This document shows positions 16,198 through 57,615 of a stretch of 64,000 nt of DNA, one piece after another. A program made the translations under genes and the position numbers. Below the pieces are notes generated by a model that was not told the DNA's origin, made no database searches, and saw only the letters and a list, made by a program, of their open reading frames with translations. Positions within the stretch are counted from its first letter, which is position 1. Every line of letters starts with the position of its first letter. This DNA comes from Stenotrophomonas maltophilia (lineage in GTDB: Bacteria > Pseudomonadota > Gammaproteobacteria > Xanthomonadales > Xanthomonadaceae), in contig NZ_LT906480.1 in assembly GCF_900186865.1 (NCBI RefSeq), positions 2,126,001-2,190,000 on the forward strand. Direction: 5' to 3'.

Positions 16198-16299
16198 GGT
16201 GGGGCGGTGTCGGAGTGCGGGGGCGCCGCAAGTACGTCCCTGTAGGCTTGGCAGCCGCATCCATGCGGCTGACACCCCGCACTCCGACACCGCCCCACC
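16198..16299 (+). repeat. Large palindromic element, copy 1
   Basis: The arms 16198-16222 and 16275-16299 are perfect 25-base reverse complements. Between them lies the family interior CGCCGCAAGTACGTCC, a GGCTTGGC step and an inner hairpin AGCCGCATCCATGCGGCT. Taken as plus orientation. The same interior recurs in five other copies in this window with different arms. Confidence 0.85.
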
Positions 16300-16442: not shown

Positions 16443-16544
16443 GGCGGGGTGGGTCCGGTTGAGGGGGCGTGAGCCGCATGGATGCGGCGACCGAGCTTAC
16501 ATGGACGTGCTTGCAGCGTCCCCCTCAACCGGACCCACCCCGCC
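16443..16544 (-). repeat. Large palindromic element, copy 2
   Basis: The arms 16443-16467 and 16520-16544 are perfect 25-base reverse complements with a sequence different from copy 1. The interior is the family interior in reverse: GAGCCGCATGGATGCGGC, then GACCGAGCTTAC, then GGACGTGCTTGCAGCGTC. It faces copy 1 across 143 bases that hold two SMAG repeats. Confidence 0.85.
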
Positions 16545-26596: not shown

Positions 26597-26700
26597 GGCG
26601 GGACGGTGCGGGGCTGCAGGACACGCCGTAAACCCGTCCATGGGGGCTCGATGGCGCCATCCATGGCGCCAACGGTCCTGCAGCCCCACACCGCCCCACC
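26597..26700 (+). repeat. Large palindromic element, copy 3
   Basis: The arms 26597-26622 and 26675-26700 pair at 23 of 26 positions. The interior reads ACACGCCGTAAACCCGTCC, ATGGGGGCTCGATGG and an inner hairpin GGCGCCATCCATGGCGCC. Compared with copy 1, the inner hairpin stem is changed on both sides while the CATCCATG loop region is kept. Confidence 0.85.
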
Positions 26701-26861
26701 TCCGACAGATTCCCGCGGCTGTGGGTAGGTGTCGACCTTGGTCGACACGGTAGATCCACGCGATGCGTGGATGCTCTTCGTTCAATTCTCGAAATGTTCG
26801 ATTTCGATAGAGATTCATCCACGCATGGCGTGGATCTACGACAGATCGCAGGAAACTATCG

Positions 26862-27042
26862 AAGGTGGGGGGGCCGGTTGCGGGAGTGTCCGCGGCATGG
26901 GCCCGAGGCATGCCTCGGGCGGGTTGGGCAGGACGCCCAACCCCGGTCTTGCCGTGTGCGCAGGACAGCGCACACGAGCAAGCCGCGGCCAAGCCCCCAC
27001 GGACGGGTTTACGGCGTCTCCCGCAACCGGACCCACCCCGTC
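26862..27042 (-). repeat. Large palindromic element, copy 4, multi-branched
   Basis: The outer arms near 26864-26886 and 27018-27042 pair; the innermost 13 bases (CCGGTTGCGGGAG and its complement) are perfect. Inside, CCGCGGC and GCCGCGG close a unit holding three hairpins: CCCGAGG/CCTCGGG (about 26902-26919), GGGTTGGGC/GCCCAACCC (26920-26943) and GTGTGCGC/GCGCACAC (26954-26975). The conserved segment GACGCCGTAAACCCGTCC is present on the minus strand (27001-27018). It faces copy 3. Confidence 0.85.
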
Positions 27043-56980: not shown

Positions 56981-57026
56981 GGTTTATCAAGCGCTCCGTT
57001 CGCGGCGCCTTGATTGATACGTGGTG

Positions 57027-57132
57027 GGCGGTACGGGTGGGCCTTTGCAGGACACGCCGTAAACCCATCCATGGGGGCTCGATGGCGCCATCCATGGCGC
57101 CAACGGTCCTGCAAAGGCCCACCCGTACCGCC
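57027..57132 (+). repeat. Large palindromic element, copy 5
   Basis: Arms 57027-57053 and 57106-57132 are perfect 27-base reverse complements, different in sequence from the other copies apart from the innermost GCAGGAC shared with copy 3. The interior is nearly identical to copy 3 (ACGCCGTAAACCCATCC, ATGGGGGCTCGATGG, GGCGCCATCCATGGCGCC). Confidence 0.88.
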
Positions 57133-57190
57133 TGCTAGGTTTCCTGCGGGCGCGGACGGGAAGGGCGGAATCAAGGGCGGGAGCACAAGC

Positions 57191-57226: not shown

Positions 57227-57265
57227 GGGGTCAGATCCCTTTGCGTAGCAAAGGGCTCTGACCCC
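57227..57265. repeat. GGGG...CCCC interspersed palindrome, copy 2
   Basis: Outer GGGGTCAGA/TCTGACCCC and inner TCCCTTTG/CAAAGGG around GCGTAG. It matches the element at 29349-29387 at most positions, with the loop and one arm changed. Confidence 0.8.
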
Positions 57266-57319
57266 AGCTTTTGACCTTGCTTTTGCTAAACCCTCCGCCG
57301 CGCGGAATGTTGGGTGGCG

Positions 57320-57572
57320 CGGGTGGGTGAGGCTGACCGGGACTGTCAGCGGCATGGGCCAGGCGCATGCGCCTGGCGGGTTGGGCAGGACGCCCAACCC
57401 CGGCCTTGCTGCGTGCGCAGGATTGCGCACGCTAGCAAGCCGCTGCCAAGCCCCCATGGGTGAGGGCGCTTTGCTTGCGAAGCACTGCTTCGCAAGCGCC
57501 CGAACGCACAGCCGCCAGCGGCTGGGCCGGTCTGGGGGTTCACGGCGTGTCCCGGGCAGCCTCACCCACCCG
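57320..57572 (-). repeat. Large palindromic element, copy 6, multi-branched and expanded
   Basis: Arms 57320-57343 and 57549-57572 pair at 23 of 24 positions. Inside, CAGCGGC and GCCGCTG close a unit with hairpins CCAGGCG/CGCCTGG, GGGTTGGGC/GCCCAACCC (57378-57401) and GCGTGCGC/GCGCACGC (57411-57432). A further hairpin, GCTTGCGAAGCA/TGCTTCGCAAGC (about 57473-57498), and more sequence are inserted before the conserved minus-strand GGACACGCCGTGAACCCCC. It faces copy 5. Confidence 0.85.
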
Positions 57573-57615
57573 GGCCCCACAGCCAACCAACAATCAGCCG
57601 GCAACGCCTTGATCC

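Follow-up and report, generated by a model that had tools for sequence, protein, structure and literature searches.

Large palindromes that keep one interior and change their arms from copy to copy raise the question of what is being conserved, and on which nucleic acid. Six such elements had been predicted in the window, by which we mean the whole 64,000-nt stretch of Stenotrophomonas maltophilia DNA that was analysed. All six were located where they had been placed (16198, 16443, 26597, 26862, 57027 and 57320), and the perfect arm pairs of 25, 25 and 27 bp were found again. The elements form three convergent pairs, 16198/16443, 26597/26862 and 57027/57320, an arrangement that the original prediction did not contain (Table 1).

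A covariance model recovered five of the six elements, with E values of 1.2e-20, 2.2e-20, 4.9e-19, 1.3e-17 and 3.2e-5, where the three lowest values belong to elements that were among the training copies of the model. The value of 3.2e-5 was obtained with the insert-bearing copy at 26862. The copy at 57320, which carries two inserts, gave no match to the model; its identification is based on visual inspection and folding.

Table 1. Positions of the elements and associated features in the window, and of the IS3-type guest copies in the own genome (G000:C1). H1 and H2 are the two short hairpins; the GGA strand is the one opposite to CGCCG.
Feature	Position	Strand	Remarks
Element 1	16198..16299	+	CGCCG on +; arms 25 bp (16198-16222, 16275-16299); interior 16223-16274
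Element 1 loops	H1 16236-16241, H2 16259-16264	GGA strand -	
Element 2	16443..16544	-	CGCTG on -; convergent partner of element 1
Element 2 loops	H2 16478-16483, H1 16501-16506	GGA strand +	
Element 3	26597..26699	+	interior 26623-26674; loops 26636-26641, 26659-26664; mismatched arms
Element 4	26862..27042	-	convergent partner of element 3; 131-nt interior (26887-27017) with 79-nt insert in H2
Element 4, H1 loop	26999-27004	+	ACGGAC
Element 4, AGGA-bearing hairpin loops of the insert	26930-26934, 26962-26967	+	
Element 5	57022..57137	+	perfect 27-bp arms inside a longer stem; interior 57054-57105; loops 57067-57072, 57090-57095
GGGGTCAGATCCC...GGGCTCTGACCCC palindrome	57228-57268		in the gap from element 5 to element 6; palindromes of this type border subclass-2.1-like Y1 transposase genes in the genus
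Element 6	57312..57574	-	convergent partner of element 5; inserts in both hairpins; assigned on arms, ends and fold only
IS3-type guest copies	near 671330, 697759, 3263551, 4111704		G000:C1

The elements are dispersed through the genome

The pattern CGYCGYRARYNYRTCC had 86 exact matches in the 5,004,261 bases of the own genome (47 forward, 39 reverse), whereas the reversed pattern, used as a control, had five in the same genome. Since the pattern misses elements 2 and 6, there are at least 86 copies, and the family is not confined to the six of the window. Each of the 86 matches was read individually. A 52-nt interior was common to 74 of them. The best stem had a median length of 25 bp and was free of mismatches in 45 of the 86, a few of these being the short stems of broken copies. 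Nineteen convergent close pairs were observed with members 273-426 bp apart, and no other arrangement of two matches within 600 bp occurred among the 86. The copies are dispersed and intergenic, as judged with a simple ORF caller, and number tens per genome, as do YPAL/RU-2. The regions at about 0.94-1.75 Mb and 2.44-3.09 Mb of the own genome are without pattern matches.

Two types of flank recur in G000. In the first, (CAACAG)n CGGGxATTCCGTGGGATGGC precedes the element and TTCGACAG follows it; in the second, GAGCCCCTCGTGG precedes and CCACGGAAAAGAAAA follows. The flanks may form additional hairpins. The 79-nt insert in H2 consists of three hairpins, two of them with AGGA loops, and was seen in three pattern-match copies (window 26887-27017, G000:C1 3672380 and G000:C1 3846901); a similar insert is present in element 6.

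In four copies of the own genome, the H1 loop hosts an IS3-type element, classified by its rve and HTH domains. It starts within a few bases past the GTCC of the loop, as if the loop were its target, and the copy at 246138 holds a short remnant of its end. Pairs spaced by 1.7 kb were considered and set aside as having an IS inside (ORFs were seen at two pairs, Pfam domains on one copy). The 1.04-kb pair 2001254/2002296 was considered as an autonomous copy and was likewise rejected; it encloses an apparent KDPG aldolase gene.

A single strand can fold as a three-way junction

Covariation was analysed in two sets of copies. In the own-genome set of 46 copies, hand-picked for variety out of 69 distinct ones, paired cells amounted to 95.8%, compared with 70.4% after shuffling and 40.4-47.0% when the partners were slid, and both-sided changes were found at 24 of 31 pairs. 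The distant set comprised 36 copies from 28 other genomes and 26 genera. Here, paired cells amounted to 97.6%, compared with 63.9% in shuffles and 33.9-41.7% with slid partners, and both-sided changes were found at 27 of 31 pairs, in a set that is biased towards the fold since it holds mostly top-ranking matches of the class search aligned by the model itself. These data strongly support that a single strand can fold as a three-way junction, in which a long stem encloses two short hairpins. The predicted combination of a conserved core, compensated stems and a folded strand is thereby borne out, and the two readings given for it, selection on the fold or copying from arm to arm, are indeed hard to tell apart.

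In the 36 distant copies the sequence information is concentrated in the junction and the loops. The outer 13 columns of the arms hold 0-0.7 bits and the innermost three 0.6-1.2 bits. In columns 23 and 26 of alignment A1, which lie in the GTAAA/GCAAG bulge of hairpin H1, T..A changes jointly to C..G; the two bases are unable to form an ordinary helix and are perhaps in tertiary contact.

The core is homologous to YPAL/RU-2 and Ysr224

The original prediction knew of no described repeat with this architecture, a statement that fails, since homologues of the interior exist in Yersinia YPAL/RU-2 and, below its cut-off, in the Rfam family Ysr224. The RU-2 sequence is printed in Table 1b of PMC2759123, and a passage of that paper equates RU-2 with YPAL. 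The core lies in the reverse complement of Y. pestis RU-2; out of 53 letters, 43 agree with element 5 and 38 with element 1. RU-2 scored 32 against element 5, and the maximum of 2000 shuffles was 7. Ysr224 (Rfam RF02770), whose consensus contains the same core, matched the core in the window at 25.8 bits with a cut-off of 70; at the Rfam gathering score it was found in none of the 369 class genomes, and no Rfam family exceeded its cut-off in the 64,000-nt window. Matches to plant and animal microRNAs in Rfam were far under the cut-off and were discarded as generic long-hairpin matches. Integron attC sites were set aside as an identity on what we take to be their box sequences. That the elements belong to the YPAL/RU-2 superfamily is well supported by their core.

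The likeness to YPAL/RU-2 includes the homologous core, both CANGGANG sites (see below), the intergenic position, tens of copies per genome and the reported mobility. According to PMC2229807, YPALs were recently mobile, are accompanied by target duplications of 3-26 bp close to dyad symmetry and possibly influence the stability of upstream transcripts; PMC2847712 gives 2-144 copies per Yersinia species. RU-2 is 168 bp long, in a superfamily with units of about 167 bp, and has inverted repeats that are described as internal; the comparison made here is of the core alone. The present elements differ by arms of about 25 bp that are often perfect and have differing sequences, and by copies that often stand in convergent pairs. 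Rfam files Ysr224 on the CGCCG strand, opposite the GGA loops. A 2022 survey ranks Ysr224 among the most prevalent bacterial sRNAs, and this prevalence may reflect its being a dispersed repeat.

The SMAG/GTAG REPs and the TIR repeats of S. maltophilia that go with Y1 transposases are likewise palindromic, intergenic and numerous and occur in the same genus, but their sequences are different, and the view that the elements are not SMAG repeats holds. At the loci inspected, Y1 genes are bordered by repeats of the SMAG, GGGGTCAG or AAAAGGGGACGG type and not by the present element. By eye, the three Y1 genes of the own genome had SMAG-type flanking repeats. The inverted repeats at 20 Y1 loci were of the GGGGTCAG type in eight cases and of the AAAAGGGGACGG type in seven, and five loci had none; the two types probably correspond to the 1152 and 4509 families of Di Nocera. 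The self-complementary 1152 TIR family, as described in passages of Di Nocera 2013, had been tried first as an identity for the elements and was dropped for want of a link to Y1 loci.

Both hairpin loops match the CsrA/RsmA consensus

On the CGCCG strand, the sequence of each loop including its closing pair is C[NTCCNT]G; on the opposite strand it is C[ANGGAN]G (CANGGANG), the CsrA/RsmE consensus. The shared interior had been recognised correctly in the original prediction, which missed that the two loops have a common motif and that this is the CsrA/RsmA consensus on the other strand. CANGGANG was present in H1 of all 82 copies (46/46 in the own genome, 36/36 in the distant set) and in H2 of 77 (45/46 and 32/36, respectively). 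The misses in H2 of the distant set were one base change and three length changes. Altogether, 159 of 164 loops had CANGGANG as a hairpin hexaloop closed by a C-G pair, and the start-to-start spacing of the two sites was 23 nt in all 76 two-site copies. Information in the distant set is 1.8-2.0 bits at the closing pairs and at A, G, G and A of the motif, and 0.4-0.7 bits at its two N positions. Yersinia RU-2 also has both sites, 24 nt apart, and the 79-nt insert adds two further AGGA-loop hairpins on the same strand in three of three copies.

PMC6849547 identifies the Rsm motif as CANGGANG, and PMC4894983 describes a CsrA-titrating leader with two adjacent hexaloops like CANGGANG that are 21 nt apart, the optimum being 18. 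CsrB, RsmZ and the Campylobacter flaA leader likewise present GGA in adjacent hexaloops at a spacing fit for one CsrA dimer; the present elements differ in having two sites per unit and many dispersed copies. Two C[ANGGAN]G loops 23 nt apart have the form of a two-site ligand, which one CsrA/RsmA dimer would be predicted to bind. This suggests that some genomes may carry dozens of movable CsrA/RsmA docking sites. In the literature searched, no CsrA reading of the YPAL family was found, and CsrA was unmentioned where YPAL and Yersinia are treated there. The CsrA match of the loops is apparently new.

The own genome has csrA (PF02599). Of the class genomes, 66 of the 71 with elements and 247 of the 298 others had a csrA match (p=0.041, lists intersected by eye); with a completeness of 90% or more and a contamination of 5% or less, the numbers were 58 of 59 and 222 of 255, respectively (p=0.009). 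This co-occurrence is weak support since CsrA is near-universal in the class. No csrA match was obtained in the five element-bearing genomes G068, G129, G160, G255 and G401; G255 is 98% complete and has nine elements, and the other four are less complete. The CsrB and RsmZ families exceeded the cut-off in none of the 37 genus genomes, where the RsmZ search had no control over the cut-off. RNAs of the CsrB/RsmZ type are poorly conserved.

The family extends through the Gammaproteobacteria

When the genome and its relatives were searched with the covariance model, the family was found well beyond Stenotrophomonas. Matches occurred in 28 of 37 genus genomes (up to 74 counted per genome), in four of 24 other genomes of the order and in 71 of 369 class genomes, where 12 were scored per genome; these 71 represent 62 of the 271 genera. 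In a phylum-wide draw of 398 genomes, which is listed with no number of genomes from other classes, 34 had matches and all 34 lay within the same class. Thioalkalivibrio, Methylocucumis, Saccharospirillum, Parahaliea, Allochromatium and Aliidiomarina are among the matches listed. A search of 72,556 plasmid and 50,697 phage records with one 58-nt core query gave no match.

Presence, absence and arm change at single loci

A comparison of the same locus among species showed that elements are present or absent. Between secF and fabV, 30 loci had a pair in five cases, a single element in 10 and none found in 15, the last being a class in which short contigs conceal some elements and in which L329, with an insert-bearing copy, was counted. 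At L333 the flanking gene is 97% identical and the gap of 214 bp is without an element.

Both arms can change together at such a locus. The arms of the 57k left element differ at three separate places among six orthologues, and all three differences were paired; pairwise, 41 differences were both-sided Watson-Crick and 10 one-sided, with related sequences counted repeatedly. The secF left element had 55 both-sided and three one-sided differences, and different subfamilies occupy this site. One-sided differences prevailed at secF right (152 versus 90 both-sided) and at 57k right (211 versus 26). At secF right, L332 shows a mixed, intermediate state.

A link to Y1 transposases was not observed: at 72 of the 107 Y1 loci in the 37 genus genomes, model R1 gave a best E of 0.07 and three chance-level matches only (E 0.074-0.098), and no copies flanked the Y1 gene as RAYT-mobilised GTAG repeats and the TIRs of TIRYTs do.

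Strand and gene context

The arm cells of 73 own copies were Watson-Crick in 1677 of 1726 cases, with 10 GT/TG, 21 AC/CA and 18 other cells. The 36 distant copies add five and 12 to the two mismatch classes. The mismatches favour the class that wobbles only in GGA-strand RNA (33 versus 15, p=0.013 pooled; p=0.071 and 0.143 for the own and distant sets taken apart), a lean that could stem from strand-biased mutation. Wobble pairs are rare on either strand, which suggests that the arms are kept up at the DNA level, and their scarcity is unlike typical RNA under selection.

With a simple ORF caller and some loci repeated, 19 of 182 copies were found between divergent genes and 68 between convergent genes. 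In codirectional contexts the GGA strand was sense in 38 cases and antisense in 57, which gives no sign that it is preferred as message. A scan of the first pair found no promoter-like site; the same scan overlooked a terminator that can be seen by eye. The left element at secF stands past an intrinsic terminator that is evident on visual inspection.

Possible functions of the element

We are inclined, with some reserve, to see the element as a mobile two-site CsrA-binding hairpin of the YPAL/RU-2 superfamily that is a dispersed decoy or a transcript tag. The GGA strand would be transcribed from a nearby promoter, the two loops of this RNA would capture one CsrA dimer and the long stem would protect the RNA. 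The element would then act as a small dispersed CsrA decoy or as a CsrA-bound tag on its transcript. Copies may spread through a trans-acting enzyme, and the arms may stay alike either because the hairpin is under selection or because template switches copy one arm onto the other. The core homology and the fold are well supported, whereas the role of CsrA is deduced from the motif. It is favoured by the loop motif, the 23-nt spacing, the AGGA loops of the insert, the RU-2 sites, the wobble lean and the csrA co-occurrence, and weakened by the Ysr224 strand, the orientation of the genes, the rarity of wobble, the csrA-less genomes and the lack of a promoter-like site in the scan of the first pair.

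Hairpins with the same loop could also dock a dimeric transposase on single-stranded DNA, as in REP/RAYT and IS200/IS605, and the CsrA likeness would then be coincidental. The nearly pure Watson-Crick arms with few wobbles (1677/1726 cells), the presence or absence between species at one locus, the small strand preference relative to genes and the recent mobility of YPALs described in PMC2229807 all fit such a mobile element. We nevertheless regard it as rather unlikely: the Y1 transposase is unlinked at the 72 of 107 genus loci, where the best E of R1 is 0.07, and the degeneracy of the loops coincides exactly with the N positions of the CsrA consensus. An RNA hairpin at gene ends that stabilises mRNA or is a processing site or attenuator, as has been suggested for YPAL, without a role of CsrA, would agree with the copy numbers between divergent (only 19/182) and convergent (68/182) genes and with the influence on upstream transcripts that PMC2229807 considers possible. 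We think this improbable, as it leaves the invariant motif in both loops across 26 genera unexplained, and the left secF element stands past the terminator.

More doubtful still is that the arms are compensated without selection, by template switching in replication that copies one arm from the other and keeps the palindrome halves alike. The three paired differences among six orthologues at 57k left, the 41 both-sided against 10 one-sided differences there and the few mismatch intermediates are what such copying would produce, but it accounts for the arms only and leaves over the conserved junction and loops, and one-sided differences exceed paired ones at secF right (152 versus 90) and 57k right (211 versus 26).

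Implications

Our results join YPAL/RU-2, the Yersinia sRNA family Ysr224 and the Stenotrophomonas palindrome as one family, present in 62 of the 271 genera sampled in the class. In the literature searched, no description of the Stenotrophomonas palindrome was found. With a CsrA/RsmA-like motif in both loops, the family gains a concrete ligand hypothesis. A further and tentative idea, of which we are doubtful, is that a mobile DNA repeat has distributed a preformed two-site ligand of CsrA across the Gammaproteobacteria and forms, in some genomes, a distributed decoy pool that tracks copy number; in Stenotrophomonas, where the CsrB and RsmZ families were undetected, it may replace the usual antagonist RNAs. 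Were CsrA to bind, the amount of a global regulator that is left free could be set by how many copies of a mobile repeat a genome holds, and the antagonist of RsmA in this group would become open to direct test.
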